NCBI GenBank assembly: GCA_902512585.1
Contig: CABXJW010000002.1
Coordinates: forward strand, 1-59,176
Reading direction: 5' to 3'
DNA: 59,176 nt
DNA from: an uncultured Woeseiaceae bacterium
Lineage (GTDB): Bacteria; Pseudomonadota; Gammaproteobacteria; Steroidobacterales; Woeseiaceae
In this document: positions 10,267 through 56,257 of the stretch, piece by piece
How positions within the stretch are numbered: the first letter of the stretch is position 1
How the letters are laid out: every line of letters begins with the position of its first letter
Translations under genes and position numbers: made by a program
Notes under the pieces: generated by a model
What the model saw: the letters and a program-made list of their open reading frames with translations, nothing else
Database searches by the model: none
What the model was told of the DNA's origin: nothing

Positions 10267-12900
10267 TTAATCAAAATTAATTCTAAAGTTAACACCCCAA
10301 GTTCTGGGTTCTGTATGATAAGCTCTTAAGCTACCATCCTGAACTGGATTATTAAATACTGACTCATAAAAACGCTCGTCAGTAGCATTTCTTACCCAGA
10401 AAGCGAGCTCAGAGTTCAGCTCTTCAAAGATAAAGCCAAGTCTTGCATTCGCAAACGTAAATGAAGGTCTGAAGTGTAATGGGTCACCTGAACCTAGAGT
10501 ATCTGACTCACTTACTGATTGCTGCTCTAAACGTATGTATCCAGTCGTATCACCTAAATTGAAGCCTTGTGTAAGTGCCACAAAAAGTCTGTTCTCAGGT
10601 TCTGCTTTTGTAATACCAGAATGATCACACGCAGTTGCATCTGGATCAGCACCTGGCGCACCTGGATCAACCAAACCTGTGTGCCATGGAGTAGCTACCC
10701 AACAACTAGCACCAGTAAATTCTTTAGCTGTTGCCACTACTTGAGCATAACTAACGTCTAGTTGCGTGCTCTCTGTAGGCGCCCAGATAATGTCTAACTC
10801 ACCACCCGAGGCTTCAGTATAACCTTGGTTTTGCAAGTTAAACGAATTACCGGTAAAGGTGCTTACTTGAAGGTTATCAACATTCATTTTCCAAGCGGCC
10901 ACATTGACTCTTAATGTGTCAGTCAGGTCCATTTTGCCACCAAACTCCAATACTTCAGTTTTCTCTGGCATAAAGATATAAGGTAGACCAATAGAAAGTC
11001 GATCCGTATTTGTACCACCAGCTTTATAACCAGTCGAGTATGAGCCATAGAACATCATGTCATCATTAGGCTGATAAGCAACTTTAATATTACCAGTTAC
11101 CTGATCATCTTCTAACTTCTCACTCACATTTGGGCGTGGTGATAAAGATGGTTGAGTATAATAACCCCAAGTTGGTGCATACAGAGGGGCTAATATAGGT
11201 AACACAGTAGTTGCTTGAGTTACTGGATTAATTGCTCCTAAACTAATCGCTCCTAAAGTATGCAATATAGAGCCTGGACCGGTTGATACGATATCAGGGA
11301 CTGGTCCCATCGTACTATTCGTATAAGTACCAACCATAGTTTTCTCTTCATTGGTGTAACGCAAACCGGCTGTTAGAGTCCAATAATCTCTCACTGGGAC
11401 ATCTATTTGACCAAAGAAAGCATAACTCTTATGTTCTTGATTCATAACATCACGTGCATATGCACCATCTGGGAAAGAGTCAGCAGCTCCTGTTGGATAT
11501 GGATTCGCCGCGACTGCAACAGCATTAATTTGCGCTGCCGTAGCTGCTGCTGGTAATCCATAAGCTACTGGATTTCCAGTAATTGCTGCAGCTATACCGG
11601 CAGTTGCTCCAGCGTATAGGCCTGCTAACGCATCAGTGGCCATTTTGAGAGTTGGGTCAATCCCAAAAAAGGCTGTTGTTTGTGCGCCAGTGGTTAACGT
11701 CGAATCATTATTTACATCTTGACTGTAGTAATAGAAGCCAAACTGATAATGTCCATCTCTGCCATTAGCGCCTTCATAATCACCTGACCATCTTAACTCT
11801 TGGGAAAAAGAGTCGAGATCTAAGAGGTTACGATCTGTTAATAATGGAGCGGCACCAAAATCGACGTCACCAAAATCATTCGTATCGAAATTTCTAATGG
11901 CCGTTACCGAGGTTAACGTCATATTATCGTAATCACGATTTATTTCTAATGACAAGCCTTTGTCCTCAGCCTTCGATTCTGGGTTATGTGTGAGGTATTG
12001 CCCTAGGTTATTAAAGCCAGAGGCCAATGCAACTTTTTGTCCTAAACCACCTGCTGCCACTGGTGCAGCAATTAGGCCGTCTGAACCAGGCTTACCAGTT
12101 ACCGGGCTAACAAAGTTATTTTTCATAGTTCCTGCAGCACAACAAACTTCATCGAGTTCAGCATAATCCATAATTAAACGCATGCTAGTACGATCGCTTG
12201 GAGTATATAGAAATTGTAAACGACCACCCATACGATCTCGATCATTTATTTTAGGACCATTTACATCCGAAAGATTGGTTATATACCCATCACGATCACT
12301 ACTAAATAAGGTTGCGCGCATGGCTAATTTATCATCTATTAAAGATACATTAGCTGCGGCATTTACGTTAACCAAACCATAGTCGCCACCGACAATCTCA
12401 AAGAAACCGTTTCTTTCATGACTAGGCGCTACTGTTCGAATATTAACCGCACCAGCAGAGGTATTTTTACCGAATAATGTACCTTGAGGACCACGTAATA
12501 TTTCAACTGCCTCAATATCAGCTAACTGATTACTAATCGAGCTTTGTCTTGAACGATATACGTTATCAACATATCCACCTACAGCAGATTCAAGACCGAA
12601 GTTTTGTGAGCTAGTATTTAATCCACGTATTCCCCAGCTTGAGAAACCAGCACTTTGACTCTGATAAGAATCAAGTGAAGGTGTCATTCCTGCCAAGTCA
12701 CGCATTGTTTTAATACTTGATTTTTGAAGCATTTCACCTGAAAACGCATCCAATGCGACAGGTACATCTTGTTGATTTTGAGCGCGTTTTTGCGCTGTTA
12801 CAACAATTTCTTCAATTTCAATAGCATTGACACTAGTAACAGTAAAGCCAACCAGTATGCAAAGTGATTTCGCTAATTTGCGACGAATATTAAAGTTCAT
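10267..12900 (-). CDS. TonB-dependent outer-membrane receptor
   Basis: Signal peptide, EEIVVTAQKRAQNQQDVPVALDAFSGEML plug start, EILRGPQGTLFGKNTSAGAVNI, C-terminal aromatic-ending strand (WGVNFRINFD). Confidence 0.95.
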   Translation of the reverse strand: MNFNIRRKLAKSLCILVGFTVTSVNAIEIEEIVVTAQKRAQNQQDVPVALDAFSGEMLQKSSIKTMRDLAGMTPSLDSYQSQSAGFSSWGIRGLNTSSQNFGLESAVGGYVDNVYRSRQSSISNQLADIEAVEILRGPQGTLFGKNTSAGAVNIRTVAPSHERNGFFEIVGGDYGLVNVNAAANVSLIDDKLAMRATLFSSDRDGYITNLSDVNGPKINDRDRMGGRLQFLYTPSDRTSMRLIMDYAELDEVCCAAGTMKNNFVSPVTGKPGSDGLIAAPVAAGGLGQKVALASGFNNLGQYLTHNPESKAEDKGLSLEINRDYDNMTLTSVTAIRNFDTNDFGDVDFGAAPLLTDRNLLDLDSFSQELRWSGDYEGANGRDGHYQFGFYYYSQDVNNDSTLTTGAQTTAFFGIDPTLKMATDALAGLYAGATAGIAAAITGNPVAYGLPAAATAAQINAVAVAANPYPTGAADSFPDGAYARDVMNQEHKSYAFFGQIDVPVRDYWTLTAGLRYTNEEKTMVGTYTNSTMGPVPDIVSTGPGSILHTLGAISLGAINPVTQATTVLPILAPLYAPTWGYYTQPSLSPRPNVSEKLEDDQVTGNIKVAYQPNDDMMFYGSYSTGYKAGGTNTDRLSIGLPYIFMPEKTEVLEFGGKMDLTDTLRVNVAAWKMNVDNLQVSTFTGNSFNLQNQGYTEASGGELDIIWAPTESTQLDVSYAQVVATAKEFTGASCWVATPWHTGLVDPGAPGADPDATACDHSGITKAEPENRLFVALTQGFNLGDTTGYIRLEQQSVSESDTLGSGDPLHFRPSFTFANARLGFIFEELNSELAFWVRNATDERFYESVFNNPVQDGSLRAYHTEPRTWGVNFRINFD

Positions 12901-44211: not shown

Positions 44212-44500
44212 AATTTTTACCTGAGAAAGTACATAACAATCAAATATTCTTCATATCAAAAGAAGTTATGATAACCACAATAATACAGTTAATCATTACA
44301 TATGTAGATCATTATAATAATGACTCATTAATACTTGCTTCTATTGGTATAATTAAATGCGGCTATCATTAGTTTTGTTTTACACTCAAATCTTAAAAGC
44401 AATTAGTTTCTATTTGAATAAAATCTCAAAAAAATATCAAAGATTATTCATCGACAAGGTTGACATCAAAACCCCCATACAACATCATTTATATATATTT

Positions 44501-44602
44501 ATGAGGCAAATAGTAAATAAAACAAATTTAATTAAATTAAATAAGAGCTCTATTCTTAGTTCATTGCTATTATTACTCAAAAGGAAGTTACGGGAAGTAT
44601 AG
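44501..44602 (+). CDS. putative branched-chain amino acid leader peptide (33 aa)
   Basis: MRQIVNKTNLIKLNKSSILSSLLLLLKRKLREV; 9 Leu, 3 Ile, 2 Val of 33 residues; Leu-Leu-Leu-Leu-Leu run at 44564-44578; followed directly by terminator and ilvC operon. No clear Shine-Dalgarno. Confidence 0.7.
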   Translation: MRQIVNKTNLIKLNKSSILSSLLLLLKRKLREV

Positions 44603-44621
44603 AATTAACAAACAACCTATT

Positions 44622-44660
44622 AACCCCGCATTCATAAATAGGAATAGTGGGGTTTTTTTT
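44622..44660 (+). terminator. attenuator terminator hairpin upstream of ilvC
   Basis: AACCCCGCATTC-ATAAATAG-GAATAGTGGGGTT (one bulged A, one G:U) followed by an unbroken T tract to 44660. Confidence 0.85.
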
Positions 44661-44717
44661 AAGATCAAATAATTTTAATTAAGCTAATTTCAAGTAATAA
44701 AAGAGGAAAAGCGAGCA

Positions 44718-45704
44718 ATGCAAATGTATTCTGAAAAAGATGTAGATTCATCAGTATTAATGGGTAAAAAAATAGCAATCCTTGGCTATGGAAGTCAAGG
44801 TAGAGCACATGCGCTTAACCTTAAAGACAGTGGCCATAATGTTGTTGTTGGGTTACGCAAAGATGGACCGAGCTGGAAAAAAGCAACTGCTGATGGATTG
44901 AACGTTGAAGAGCCAAAAGACGCTGTTGTTGATGCGGCCATCACAGCATTTCTAACTCCTGATTTAACGCAAGAGCAGCTGTATAAGGATATTGAAAATT
45001 CTTTGAATCAAAACTCAGCAATCTTATTCGCGCATGGATTTAATATTCATTACAAGCAAATCAAGCCACGTGAAGATCTAGATGTTTTCCTAATCGCACC
45101 AAAAGGTCCTGGTGGTTTAGTAAGAAGACAGTACCAAGAAGGACACGGTGTTCCTTGTTTGGTGGCCGTTGAGACAGATCAAACAGGATCTGCGCTGAAC
45201 TTAGCACTTAGTTATGCTCATGGGATTGGAGGTGCGCGTGCAGGTGTTATCGAAACAACTTTTGCCGAGGAAACAGAAACAGATTTATTTGGCGAGCAAG
45301 CTGTATTGTGTGGTGGTGCCACAGAGTTGGTAGTGGCTGGATATGAGACGCTTATAGCAGCAGGCTACCAACCTGAAGTTGCTTACTATGAATGTATGCA
45401 TGAATTAAAACTTATAGTCGATCTTCTTCATGAAGGTGGATTGAAAAAAATGCATGAATTTATAAGTGATACAGCGGCCTATGGTGATTTAGTTAGCGGT
45501 CCAAGAGTTATTGATGAGCATGTTAGAAATAAAATGAAAGATGTATTAACTGACATTCAAGACGGAACATTTGCAAATAATTGGATAAACGAGAATAAAA
45601 ATGGTCAGCCAGAATTTAAAAGAATGATGAATGAAGATCTAAATCATTCTATCGAAGAAGTAGGTTCAGATCTCAGGGGTCGTATGGATTGGCTAGAAAA
45701 TTAA
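44718..45704 (+). CDS. ilvC: ketol-acid reductoisomerase
   Basis: [72 protein letters not shown]. Confidence 0.98.
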
Positions 45705-45725
45705 TATTACAACTTTGGAAAAATA

Positions 45726-46652
45726 ATGAGTTATAAAGGTGGAAAATACATATGGCATAACAATCAGATGATTGATTGGAATGAAGCAAAAGTTCATATT
45801 CTCTCGCATGCGCTTCATTATGGATCATCTGTCTTCGAGGGTATAAGGGTTTATAAAACACCAAATGGATTAAAAATATTTCGTCTGGATGACCATATCC
45901 AACGTTTATATAATTCTGCAAAAATATACAGAATGCCAATTCCATTCACGAAAAATGAAATAAACGACGCCTGTAAAGAATTAATCAGAAAAAATGAACT
46001 TAATAATGGAGCTTATATTAGACCTATTGCTTTCAGAGGTTATGGTGAGATAGGTCTAGCGCCAAAAGATGATCATCCAGTAGATGTCTCAATTGCGGCC
46101 TGGGAATGGGGAACCTATCTCGGTGCAGAAGCTCTTGAAAATGGCGTGGATGTTTGCGTCTCGAGTTGGCAAAGAGTCGCACCAAACACCATTCCAACAC
46201 AAGCAAAAGCTGGTGGTAATTATCTATCAAGTACTCTAATAAGTACTGAAGCAAAACGCCTTGGCTTTGATGAGGGTATTGCATTATCAACGGATGGTAT
46301 GGTTAGTGAGGGAGCGGGTGAAAACTTATTTCTCATAAAAGGTGGAAATATTTATACTCCTCCCGCGTCATCAGGAATCCTAACAGGAATAACAAGAGAT
46401 ACTGTCATCAGACTATGTGAGACAGCTGGTATAAACGTAAAAGAACAATCTATTACTCGCGAATCGCTATATCTTGCAGATGAAATATTCTTTACAGGCA
46501 CTGCAGCTGAAATAACACCAATAAGATCAGTCGATAGGATCATTATAGGTAATGGTAAAAGAGGAGCCATGACATCAGAATTGCAAAATAAATTCTTTGG
46601 TTTATTTTCAGGAGACACCAAGAATTATGATCATTGGCTAGAAAGTGTTTAG
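45726..46652 (+). CDS. ilvE: branched-chain amino acid aminotransferase
   Basis: HALHYGSSVFEGIRVYKT; QAKAGGNYLSSTLISTEAKRLGFDEGIAL; EIFFTGTAAEITPI. Confidence 0.96.
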   Translation: MSYKGGKYIWHNNQMIDWNEAKVHILSHALHYGSSVFEGIRVYKTPNGLKIFRLDDHIQRLYNSAKIYRMPIPFTKNEINDACKELIRKNELNNGAYIRPIAFRGYGEIGLAPKDDHPVDVSIAAWEWGTYLGAEALENGVDVCVSSWQRVAPNTIPTQAKAGGNYLSSTLISTEAKRLGFDEGIALSTDGMVSEGAGENLFLIKGGNIYTPPASSGILTGITRDTVIRLCETAGINVKEQSITRESLYLADEIFFTGTAAEITPIRSVDRIIIGNGKRGAMTSELQNKFFGLFSGDTKNYDHWLESV

Positions 46653-46686: not shown

Positions 46687-48099
46687 ATGCTATCTGAAAA
46701 CGATAATACCCTCTTTGAGAATGTCTGGTTAGAACACGAAGTTAGGCCAGAATCTAAAACAAATCCTGCAATCATTTACATTGATCTTCATTTAATACAT
46801 GAAGTCACAACCCCTCAAGCATTTTCACTTTTGAGAGAAAATAATCTTAGTGTGAGAAAACCCAATCTAACCATAGGTACAATGGACCATTCCACACCAA
46901 CATTACCTATTAATTCCTTCAAAGATATTGAAATCGCTGGAAAAGATGCGGCAAATCAAGTCAGAACAATGATGCAAAATTGCCATGATTTTGGAATTGA
47001 GTTATTTGATTTTGACAGCAAAAACCGTGGCATAGTTCATGTCATAGGGCCAGAGCTCGGACTAACACAGCCAGGTAAAACTATTGTTTGTGGGGATAGT
47101 CATACAAGCACTCATGGTGCTTTTGGTGCCCTAGCCTTCGGTATAGGTACTACTGAAGTAGGTCATGTCTTAGCGACCCAATGCTTACTTCAACGAAAAC
47201 CAAAAACATTACTCATCGAAGTGAATGGAAAACTACAAAAAGGTGTTACCGCAAAAGATTTAATCTTAGCAATTATTGGTAAAATTGGTGTTGCCGGAGG
47301 AACTGGCTACGTATTGGAATACACTGGTGAAGCCATAAGAGCGATGGACATGGAGGCCAGAATGACTATCTGTAACATGTCCATCGAAGCTGGGGCCAAG
47401 TCCGGTATGATTGCACCAGATGATATCACATATGATTATCTTTATGATTGTCCGAGATCACCAAAAGGTAAGGATTGGGAAACAGCATTAATGAGATGGA
47501 AATCACTCCCTAGTTCAAGCAACGCATCCTATGATAAAAAAATAAGTATTGATGCTAATAAGCTCACGCCAATGATTACGTTTGGCACTAATCCTGGAAT
47601 GGTAGTAGGAGTCAATGACCCTATTCCTGAAAACTCCAGTGATAGTAGCTTCAATAAAGCTATAAAGTACATGCAGGTATCGCCAGGCAAACCTCTGAAT
47701 GAAGACCCTGTAGACGTAGTATTCATAGGTAGCTGTACGAATTCAAGGCTAAATGACCTCAAAGCTGCGGCACTAATATTAAAAGATAAAAAAATTGCAA
47801 ATGATGTCACAATGCTCATCGTCCCTGGTTCACAAAAAATTAAATATGAGGCAGAGGCTCTAGGTTTACATGAAATCTTTTTGGCCGCTGGAGCTGAATG
47901 GAGAGAATCAGGTTGCTCAATGTGTCTTGGTATGAATGGTGACACAGTTGAATCAGGCAAATTAAGCATTAGCACCAGTAATAGAAATTTTGAAGGTCGC
48001 CAAGGAAAAGGTGCGAGAACAATTTTAGCCAGCCCATTGACAGCTGCAGCATCAGCAATAGAAGGAAAAATTGCTGATCCTAGAAAATATATAGAGTAA
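46687..48099 (+). CDS. leuC: 3-isopropylmalate dehydratase large subunit
   Basis: TMDHSTPT; VCGDSHTSTHGAFGALAFGIGTTEVGHVLATQ; FIGSCTNSRLNDLKAAA; SGCSMCLGMNGD. Confidence 0.97.
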   Translation: MLSENDNTLFENVWLEHEVRPESKTNPAIIYIDLHLIHEVTTPQAFSLLRENNLSVRKPNLTIGTMDHSTPTLPINSFKDIEIAGKDAANQVRTMMQNCHDFGIELFDFDSKNRGIVHVIGPELGLTQPGKTIVCGDSHTSTHGAFGALAFGIGTTEVGHVLATQCLLQRKPKTLLIEVNGKLQKGVTAKDLILAIIGKIGVAGGTGYVLEYTGEAIRAMDMEARMTICNMSIEAGAKSGMIAPDDITYDYLYDCPRSPKGKDWETALMRWKSLPSSSNASYDKKISIDANKLTPMITFGTNPGMVVGVNDPIPENSSDSSFNKAIKYMQVSPGKPLNEDPVDVVFIGSCTNSRLNDLKAAALILKDKKIANDVTMLIVPGSQKIKYEAEALGLHEIFLAAGAEWRESGCSMCLGMNGDTVESGKLSISTSNRNFEGRQGKGARTILASPLTAAASAIEGKIADPRKYIE

Positions 48100-48103
48100 C
48101 CCA

Positions 48104-48688
48104 ATGAAACCTATAACTTCCATTAAATCTAAAACTGTATCGTTACAAACAGCAGATATAGATACGGATCAAATTATCCCAGCACGCTTTTTAACAACAA
48201 CTTCTCGTGAGGGACTTGGTGATAAACTTTTCCATGACTGGAGATATAATGAAAATGGTGAAGAAAATCCAAATTTCCTACTAAATAATAAAGAAAACAA
48301 ACAATGTGAAATACTACTTGCTGGAGATAATTTTGGATGTGGATCATCTCGTGAACATGCTCCATGGGCTTTAATAGATTATGGTTTCAAAGCAGTAATA
48401 AGCTCTAAAATTGCTGATATATTCAAAAGTAATGCCCTAAAAAATGGCTTACTTCCAATCGTTGTAAATAAATTGATTCTAGAAGAGCTAATGAATAAAT
48501 CTGGTGAAACGCTTCTCATTGATATTGAAATGTCTAAAATCATCACGCCAAGTAACATTGAAATTAAATATGAAATTGATGAGTTTTCTAAATACTGCAT
48601 CATTGAAGGTATTAATCAGCTTGGTTACATACAACGCCACAATAAAGTAATTGAAAAATTTGAGGAAAAGAGAATATGGACGCCTTAA
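48104..48688 (+). CDS. leuD: 3-isopropylmalate dehydratase small subunit
   Basis: [41 protein letters not shown]. Confidence 0.97.
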
Positions 48689-49740
48689 TAACCCTCTTAC
48701 CTGGAGATGGCATTGGTCCTGAAGTAGCCCAATCTGGAAAGAATGTGCTTGCAAGAATAGGACAACAATTCGGTCATAATTTTACCTTTTCAGAACAATA
48801 TATAGGTGGTTCGGCAATAGATCATTGCAATGATCCATTACCATCAAATACCATCTCTAGCTGTAAGGAATCAGACGCAGTTATTCTTGGAGCTGTAGGA
48901 GGTCCTAAGTGGGATAATCCCAATGCTAAAATAAGACCTGAGCAAGGTTTATTGGGTTTAAGAGCAGTCTTAAAAGTTTTTGCCAATATTCGTCCCGTTC
49001 AAATTATACCTTCATTGTCCAATGCTTCCCCGCTAAAAGAGGAATTGCTTAAGGATATAGATCTACTTGTTATACGAGAGCTTACAGGTGGGATATATTT
49101 TGGAAAAAAAGAACGCACAAAAGAGTCTGCATCAGATTTATGTATATACCAAAAATATGAAATTGAAAGAATAATAAGAATTGCGGCCAATTTAGCAAAA
49201 GCAAGGAAGAACAAGCTATGCTCGGTTGATAAAGCAAATGTTCTCGAGACCTCGAGACTCTGGCGTGACGTAACTACAAACCTATTAGCTAATGAGTTCC
49301 CCAATACCAATGTAGAGCATTTATTGGTTGATGCGGCTGCTATGTATTTAATTAGTCGCCCAGCTGACTTTGATGTAATAGTCACTGAAAATATGTTCGG
49401 TGATATTCTTACTGACGAAGCATCAATGTTAGCCGGATCGATGGGAATGCTACCTTCAGCTTCGATTGGTGATGAGAAAGTAGGTTTATATGAACCAATT
49501 CATGGATCTGCACCAGATATTGCTGGAAAAGGTATTGCAAATCCTTGTGGAATGATTGGAAGTATAGCTTTATTGCTCAGGCATAGTCTGAACCTTGAGG
49601 AAGAAGCAAAACTCGTTGAAGATGCAATTTACAATACAATCGAAAATGGAGCGAGAACTGCTGACCTTACAAAAAAACAAAATAAAGCTCTAAGCACAGT
49701 CGAGATGACACAAAAAATTATTGATAATTTAGAATTTTAA
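48676..49740 (+). CDS. leuB: 3-isopropylmalate dehydrogenase
   Basis: [53 protein letters not shown]. Confidence 0.97.
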
Positions 49741-49753
49741 AAATACTGTATAT

Positions 49754-50812
49754 ATGGATATCAAGAAATACGTAAGGCCAGAAGTACTGAACTTACCAAC
49801 TATTAATGCACCTGATATTAGTGACGGAATGATTCGTTTAAATGCCAATGAATCGCCGCAGTATCCCTGGGGTGATAAAAGTTCGAACCTCAATAGATAT
49901 CCACCAATTAGACCTTCTACTCTTACTCATAAAATGGCAGAATTTTACTCAGTTAGTATGGATGAAATTTTAATATCAAGAGGAAGTACTGAAGCCGTTG
50001 ATATAATTATTAGAACTTTTTGCAGACCTAATTTGGATAGGATACTAATAACTCCACCAACATTTGATATGTATCAATTCTTTGCAAATTTAAATTCGAT
50101 AGCGGTTTGTGAAACTCCCCTCCTCCAAGAAAATAAATTTGAATTAAATGTAAGTGATGTGATTAATTCTATTAAACAAGAAATAAAATTAATTTTTTTA
50201 TCTTCTCCAAATAATCCGTGTGGAACATCCGTAAGTAATAATGATGTTATCAAAATTCTTAATGCAGCTAATGACAAAGCCTTAGTGGTTCTAGATGAGG
50301 CCTACATTGAATTCAGTTCACATCAGACAATGATTAATATGATTAATGATTACCCAAATCTAATTATTCTTAGAACGCTTTCAAAAGCTCATGCACTTGC
50401 TGGAGCAAGATGTGGCGCCATGATTTCTAATAATAAAATAATAAGTATATTACAAAAGATTTTGCCACCATTTTCCTTCTCTATACCAAATATAGATCAA
50501 ATAGAGTCAGTTTTATCCTCAAAAAATATAGATGCAGCTCAACATCAAATTGAAACAATAATTCAAGAAAGAATTAGATTAGTTGAAGAGCTAAGAAAAT
50601 TAAAATCCGTTGATCAAATTTGGAGTAGTGATGGTAATTTCATAATGATAAAGTTCAATAACCTGGAGCTTGCAGTTAAAGCTCTGAACAAACAAAATAT
50701 CTTGGTTGGCTTACTAAAAAATAATTCAGCATTAACTCAGTGCGCGAGGATTACTATCGGTACAAAAAGTGAGAATAACTTATTATTAGAAACTCTAAGA
50801 GATTTAGTGTAA
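49754..50812 (+). CDS. hisC: histidinol-phosphate aminotransferase-like PLP enzyme
   Basis: RLNANESPQYPWGDKSSNLNRYPPIRP; SSPNNPCGTSVSN; VVLDEAYIEFS; RTLSKAHALAGARCG. Confidence 0.85.
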   Translation: MDIKKYVRPEVLNLPTINAPDISDGMIRLNANESPQYPWGDKSSNLNRYPPIRPSTLTHKMAEFYSVSMDEILISRGSTEAVDIIIRTFCRPNLDRILITPPTFDMYQFFANLNSIAVCETPLLQENKFELNVSDVINSIKQEIKLIFLSSPNNPCGTSVSNNDVIKILNAANDKALVVLDEAYIEFSSHQTMINMINDYPNLIILRTLSKAHALAGARCGAMISNNKIISILQKILPPFSFSIPNIDQIESVLSSKNIDAAQHQIETIIQERIRLVEELRKLKSVDQIWSSDGNFIMIKFNNLELAVKALNKQNILVGLLKNNSALTQCARITIGTKSENNLLLETLRDLV

Positions 50813-56180: not shown

Positions 56181-56257
56181 TGGTCGGGACGGAGAGATTT
56201 GAACTCACGACCCCCACAACCCCATTGTGGTGCGCTACCAGGCTGCGCTACGCCCCG
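56181..56257 (-). tRNA. tRNA-Pro(GGG)
   Basis: Reverse complement CGGGGCGTAGCGCAGCCTGGTAGCGCACCACAATGGGGTTGTGGGGGTCGTGAGTTCAAATCTCTCCGTCCCGACCA; anticodon loop ATGGGGT; encoded CCA. Confidence 0.95.

Follow-up and report, generated by a model that had tools for sequence, protein, structure and literature searches.

The region upstream of ilvC in the DNA analyzed here is very likely a ribosome-mediated transcription attenuator of the classical type, with charged tRNA-Leu as the signal, judging from parts, spacing, conservation, and covariation obtained by sequence comparison. The DNA, referred to below as the window, is the whole stretch of 59,176 nucleotides, contig 2 of a 1.11-Mb genome (66% complete) from an uncultured member of the Woeseiaceae. 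Among named records, Woeseiaceae AG-313-J15 is the closest, with a partial ilvC 99% identical to that of the window. Leader-peptide attenuation, best known from enterobacteria, would thereby be extended to the Woeseiaceae, a family widespread in marine sediments (PMC7082342), with one Leu switch placed before a fused Ile/Val/Leu operon. The leader element in the window is composed of the following parts.

44460 to 44465, + strand: −35 hexamer TTGACA of the predicted leader promoter (consensus scan; relatives have TTGACA/T at this position)
44483 to 44488, + strand: −10 hexamer CATCAT (family form CATNAT) after a spacer of 17 (consensus scan; AACATNAT kept at that spacing in relatives)
44495, + strand: predicted transcription start, placed from the promoter position, ∼7 nt after the −10 hexamer and 6 nt before the leader AUG
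44501 to 44602, + strand: Leu-rich leader peptide ORF of 33 codons, MRQIVNKTNLIKLNKSSILSSLLLLLKRKLREV, with stop codon TAG at 44600 to 44602 (frame conserved and stop-free in 52 relatives)
44564 to 44578, + strand: putative sensor Leu codon run TTG CTA TTA TTA CTC (aligned Leu slots up to 96% Leu in relatives)
44591 to 44594, + strand: antiterminator 5′ arm CGGG, GCGGG in relatives (near-invariant columns; pairing with CCCG in 96% of cells)
44599 to 44602, + strand: 5′ arm AUAG of the inner antiterminator helix, overlapping the stop codon (partner CUAU at 44617 to 44620; fold of the truncated transcript)
44622 to 44654, + strand: predicted intrinsic terminator hairpin AACCCCGCATTC/GAATAGTGGGGTT (12 pairs with a single bulged base, 44646; aligned core, −14.1 kcal/mol)
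44625 to 44628, + strand: antiterminator 3′ arm CCCG, common to the terminator 5′ arm (pair probability 0.95 to 0.99 with the RNA upstream of 44589 masked and the RNA end at 44636)
44653 to 44660, + strand: U8 tract (eight T; conserved in the alignment)

A preliminary description of this DNA had read the region as a candidate Leu-codon attenuator, and the leader ORF, the Leu codons, the CGGG motif, and the ilvC start were all found at the coordinates it gave when the sequence was reread. The hairpin and U tract that it reported are likewise present, but the hairpin starts 19 nt past the leader stop codon rather than twenty, and its 3′ arm contains a single bulged base, a feature kept across the family. 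The last Leu codon of the window is 12 nt from CGGG. Because the leader region folded as a single sequence is only mildly unusual (z = −2.1), the weight of the evidence rests on conservation.

About 53 distinct Woeseiaceae sequences have the same leader architecture in front of ilvC (ilvC relatives were present in 92 of 99 genomes). In the family layout, the promoter TTGACA/T-N17-CATNAT is followed by the AUG of a 20- to 36-codon ORF with its Leu run near the end, then by GCGGG, which overlaps the last sense codon and the stop codon of the ORF, and, after ∼30 nt, by CCCCGC-loop-GNGGGG, a U tract, and ilvC. An alignment of ilvC upstream regions had been proposed as a check on the attenuator reading; in it, the Leu run is conserved, the hairpin covaries, and the GGG of the antiterminator arm and the CCCCGC of the terminator are nearly invariant. 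Independence was assessed with a covariance model of 26 relatives from which the window's genus was left out. This model finds positions 44565 to 44659 of the window with 47.1 bits (E = 9.6e-12) and the five other members of the genus with E values of 3.6e-7 or better. Model searches matched 52 Woeseiaceae genomes, the window's included, with one copy per genome. The window's own genome holds one strong copy; a second, weak match, at C45 (E = 0.49), covers only the terminator end of the model. The mild single-sequence fold would also suit an ordinary terminator that happens to follow a Leu-rich ORF, but this explanation is extremely improbable given the conservation, spacing, frame, and covariation in relatives, and the match to the genus-free model contradicts it. 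Comparison with relatives supports the proposed Leu-codon attenuator, its CGGG/CCCG antiterminator and stall-versus-stop logic included.

The reading frame and spacing of the leaders were compared across 52 sequences. The eight codons to the end of the Leu-run region are 52% Leu and 64% Leu/Ile/Val and contain no stops; in the other two frames, Leu/Ile/Val make up 17% and 8% (Leu alone, 15% and 1%), and 10 and 8 of the 416 codons are stops. The distance from the end of the last Leu codon to GCGGG is 10 to 16 nt in 48/52 leaders, which matches the downstream footprint of the ribosome, being roughly the length of RNA covered beyond the A site. The leader stop codon starts 5 nt past the first base of GCGGG in 42/52 leaders and within a few nucleotides in nearly all. 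The spacing required for a codon stall to free the antiterminator arm, and for a ribosome at the stop codon to cover it, is thus present. CTT and CTG occur at 28:22 in the leaders versus 72:159 in the ilvC genes of the same genomes; a bias toward rare codons was rejected as an interpretation, since the stem also constrains the Leu codons and the window's run uses its commonest codon, TTA. It is rather unlikely that the leader senses Leu, Ile, and Val together, in the manner of ilvL, and not Leu alone. Val and Ile codons do flank the Leu run in many relatives, and the operon is used for Ile and Val synthesis as well, but the codon slot at the right distance from GCGGG (the sixth before it, slot −6) is Leu in 50/52 leaders, and the run in the window consists of five Leu codons.

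The two alternative RNA structures are both supported by the alignment. The terminator is paired in 97.3% of cells, 10 cells have two-sided changes, and none of 500 shuffles scored as high. The outer helix of the antiterminator, GCGGG/CCCGC, is paired in 96.2% of cells, and the CGGG/CCCG pairing that had been proposed for the window forms in its truncated transcript (see below). The inner helix is paired in 72% of cells, with two-sided changes in all four pairs, and has two registers (GCGU at differing offsets) that are also visible in a slide control. Folding of the inner loop beats shuffles over the whole set (Wilcoxon P = 4e-4), and the window alone has a modest gain (rank 0.15). A further hairpin comprising the Leu codons is paired in 68.2% of cells, with two-sided changes in 7/8 pairs, and shuffles come close to these values. 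This hairpin is suggestive only; more evident in relatives than in the window, where it is weak, it may be an RNA polymerase pause site.

Equilibrium folding alone does not reveal a switch, but folding of truncated transcripts does. At full length, the terminator is more stable than the antiterminator in almost every sequence (means, −16.0 versus −12.3), whatever ribosome mask is applied; the values for the window are −14.1 versus −6.8 kcal/mol, and the antiterminator of L085, from the same genus, has degenerate pairing and a value of −1.3. Because the terminator wins at equilibrium, the switch would require an antiterminator that forms before the terminator and then persists, and the weak antiterminator of this AT-rich genus (−6.8 kcal/mol) likewise implies that antitermination must be kinetic. 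When the window transcript is cut off within the terminator loop, masking the RNA upstream of 44589, as by a ribosome at the last Leu codon, yields the antiterminator with a probability of 0.95 to 0.99, whereas masking to 44612, as by a ribosome at the stop codon, makes it impossible. The antiterminator also forms in 49/53 relatives when the RNA before GCGGG is masked. The stall-versus-stop logic put forward in the preliminary description is therefore reproduced by truncated RNA, and the folding with a ribosome footprint that it suggested shows the switch there but not at full-length equilibrium. With no ribosome and before the terminator arm is made, the antiterminator of the window is still favored (0.89 to 0.94), so that an untranslated leader would not obviously be shut off in the usual way.

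The low stability of the antiterminator in the window and L085, relative to the family mean, is what would be expected if the attenuator were a vestige in a streamlined, AT-rich genus, its antiterminator too weak and its hairpin a fixed partial terminator. Two further facts described below point the same way: the operons of the window and genome G004 no longer include leuA, and strict matches to a conserved upstream element are absent from the window's genus. Nevertheless, the Leu run, the frame, the CGGG beside the stop codon, the terminator, and the promoter have been kept despite strong AT drift, and the antiterminator still forms in the truncated transcript of the window; we consider a vestige quite unlikely and a working attenuator the better reading.

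The promoter of the leader lies at a nearly constant distance from the AUG. From the start of the −35 hexamer to the AUG there are 35 to 41 nt in 52/53 leaders listed, 37 in most (as in the L113 leader). In the window, the last base of the −10 hexamer is 44488, which places the expected +1 near 44495, with the AUG at 44501, leaving no room for a Shine-Dalgarno sequence between them. Since the same promoter-AUG spacing is found throughout the family, the leader ORF is probably read leaderless or nearly so, with the start site placed from the promoter position. Leaderless leader peptides are known from the Sinorhizobium meliloti trpL (peTrpL), a proteobacterial attenuator (PMC7298713); in the Corynebacterium glutamicum ilvBNC leader (ilvL) (PMC11857589) and in Streptomyces LeuL/IlvL (PMC8079986), the AUG coincides with the transcription start or lies 1 nt from it. 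A literature search with incomplete coverage returned no gammaproteobacterial leaderless leader peptide and no report from the Woeseiaceae. A leaderless leader ORF in a gammaproteobacterium would offer a clean test of ribosome-polymerase synchronization without a Shine-Dalgarno step. A promoter past the hairpin that drives ilvC would have spoken against attenuation; a consensus scan of the + strand from the hairpin to ilvC, which is weak evidence, detected no site resembling a promoter. The leader of L085 (genome G004) has two AUGs upstream of ilvC, the first of which opens an ORF of four codons; the TGA of this ORF overlaps the second AUG (ATGA), and this overlap might allow termination-reinitiation.

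An additional element, GTAWCACAAGTAACTGA (other form, GTAACACNCGTAACTG), is conserved 10 to 14 nt before TTGACA in ∼36 relatives (e.g., L107, L110, and L121) and is a possible activator site. Of 60 genomes searched, 12 contain a strict match, a single copy in each, whose location is that of the ilvC promoter or consistent with it; the window's genus has none. Its position just upstream of the −35 hexamer and its single-copy occurrence would fit a DNA-binding activator that exerts the main control of ilvC, with the leader only tuning expression. This arrangement is unlikely, because the leader is kept in the window's genus, where the strict element is missing, and because an activator would not account for the Leu codons, the antiterminator, or the terminator.

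The mechanism that we infer for the leucine attenuator spans transcription start, translation, pausing, termination, and the response to leucine. RNA polymerase would start at or a few nucleotides before the AUG of the 33-codon leader ORF, which would be translated without a Shine-Dalgarno sequence. The hairpin formed by the Leu codons and the sequence just after them may pause the polymerase while the ribosome catches up. With ample Leu, the ribosome would reach the stop codon and cover CGGG, leaving CCCCG free to form the terminator (44622 to 44654), and transcription would end before ilvC. During a shortage of Leu-tRNA, the ribosome would stall in the Leu codon run, 12 nt short of CGGG, and CGGG would pair with CCCG (and AUAG with CUAU) before the 3′ arm of the terminator is made; the polymerase would then read on into ilvC-ilvE-leuCDB-hisC.

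The operon ilvC-ilvE-leuC-leuD-leuB-hisC was confirmed as first described, with all genes above the NCBIfam cut-offs and with short gaps or overlaps between them.

44718 to 45704, + strand: ilvC, ketol-acid reductoisomerase (TIGR00465, 421 bits)
45726 to 46652, + strand: ilvE, branched-chain aminotransferase (TIGR01122)
46687 to 48099, + strand: leuC (TIGR00170)
48104 to 48688, + strand: leuD (TIGR00171)
48676 to 49740, + strand: leuB (TIGR00169)
49754 to 50812, + strand: hisC, last gene of the run (TIGR01141, 308.8 bits; cut-off, 276.55)

The genes ilvC, ilvE, leuC, leuD, and leuB make Leu, Ile, and Val, and the 3′ end of hisC faces a convergent lysA, followed by ilvD on the other strand. Elsewhere in the window, positions 56181 to 56257 (− strand) hold a tRNA-Pro(GGG) gene. 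Larger Woeseiaceae genomes have the order ilvC-leuA-(ilvE)-leuC-leuD-leuB, with his genes nearby; ilvC-leuA-(ilvE)-leuCDB is the ancestral operon, from which the window has lost leuA. The gene is absent between ilvC and ilvE in the window (45704 to 45726) and in G004 (99% complete), and no full leuA was found in the window's incomplete (66%) genome. In G004 and G002, the sole leuA is a 27% identical copy at an unlinked location, and the upstream stretch read in G004 contains no leader of the ilvC type. The loss of leuA from the operon, together with the unlinked, distant leuA of G002 and G004, indicates that regulation was rewired during genome reduction. Only in the window's genus is hisC joined to the leucine operon; since hisG-hisD-hisC lies some kilobases downstream of leuB in larger relatives, the leuB-hisC junction probably arose by deletion. 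The placement of the leader before ilvC had been regarded as a different wiring, and a combined operon headed by ilvC is indeed unusual, but it is the norm of the family and not a peculiarity of this genome.

An order-wide search with the model gave matches in 98/246 genomes. In other families of the order, where the first genes were called by reading translated gene starts, the leader precedes ilvC (L186 to L189, L192 to L196, and L198), leuA (L190, L191, L199, L201, and L202), ilvA-like genes (L200 and L203), or acetolactate synthase (L197 and L205). Outside the order, only five weak matches were obtained in 369 class-level genomes, and these were rejected as members because their leaders, rich in Ile/Val/Thr and located before other genes, look like generic attenuators. 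Two of them, L232 and L236, have Val/Ile/Thr- or Val-rich leaders before MFS-transporter-like genes and are possible attenuated transporters. The Rfam search that had been recommended was run against all families of Rfam 15, and no leader match reached the gathering threshold in the window or its relatives; the best match over the leader was Trp_leader (RF00513), with 16.6 bits versus a gathering score of 41. Near the ilvC locus of a gammaproteobacterial MAG, a SAM riboswitch (RF00162, 71.5 bits) was observed at L014 positions 11943 to 12062 (− strand). On balance, we favor the view that the leaders constitute a family-wide gammaproteobacterial Leu attenuator outside Rfam, with a promoter fused to the AUG, a leaderless sensor peptide on which the first ribosome would load a few nucleotides from the polymerase start, and ilvC, leuA, ilvA, or acetolactate synthase as the first gene across the families of the order. 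The strength of the alignment and the model suffices for defining a new RNA family.

Attenuation of this kind is known (leuL/ilvL/trpL type); the Woeseiaceae member and the gammaproteobacterial leaderless version appear to be undescribed. The unusual points are the combined operon headed by ilvC and the predicted leaderless leader ORF. The position before ilvC may not be unprecedented, as Vitreschak et al. in 2004 reportedly predicted attenuators in other proteobacteria, including a leader before an ilvC-headed operon of Xanthomonas. Attenuators predicted for Shewanella leuA and ilvG, the former with anti-antiterminator, antiterminator, and terminator stems (PMC2659441), are of the same kind and concern the same amino acids but belong to another lineage and have other operon heads. 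The C. glutamicum ilvL and Streptomyces LeuL/IlvL leaders also place a branched-chain operon under a leader peptide; they differ in belonging to Actinobacteria, in having ilvB (or leuA or leuS) first, and in their hairpins. The S. meliloti peTrpL differs in amino acid (Trp), operon (trpE(G)), and lineage (an alphaproteobacterium). The trpL leader (RF00513) shares the geometry in which GGGC by the leader stop codon pairs with the 5′ arm of the terminator, but its codons are Trp rather than Leu, and the Leu-codon hairpin described here does not clearly occupy the antiterminator arm. The 3:4 and 2:3 structures of E. coli trp fold at −13.4 and −15.6, and the corresponding pair in the window is less favorable. 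In E. coli, leuL stands at the head of leuABCD, with a leader segment upstream. In leuL of E. coli and Salmonella, as here, a Leu-codon leader peptide and a GC-rich terminator with a U tract precede the first gene, and a stalled ribosome frees the antiterminator, as would be expected in the Woeseiaceae. The leuL sequence is a marginal match to the Woeseiaceae model (L153, 12.8 bits, E = 0.05). Unlike leuL, the Woeseiaceae RNA heads ilvC(-leuA)-ilvE-leuCDB, and its AUG lies ∼6 nt from the predicted +1.
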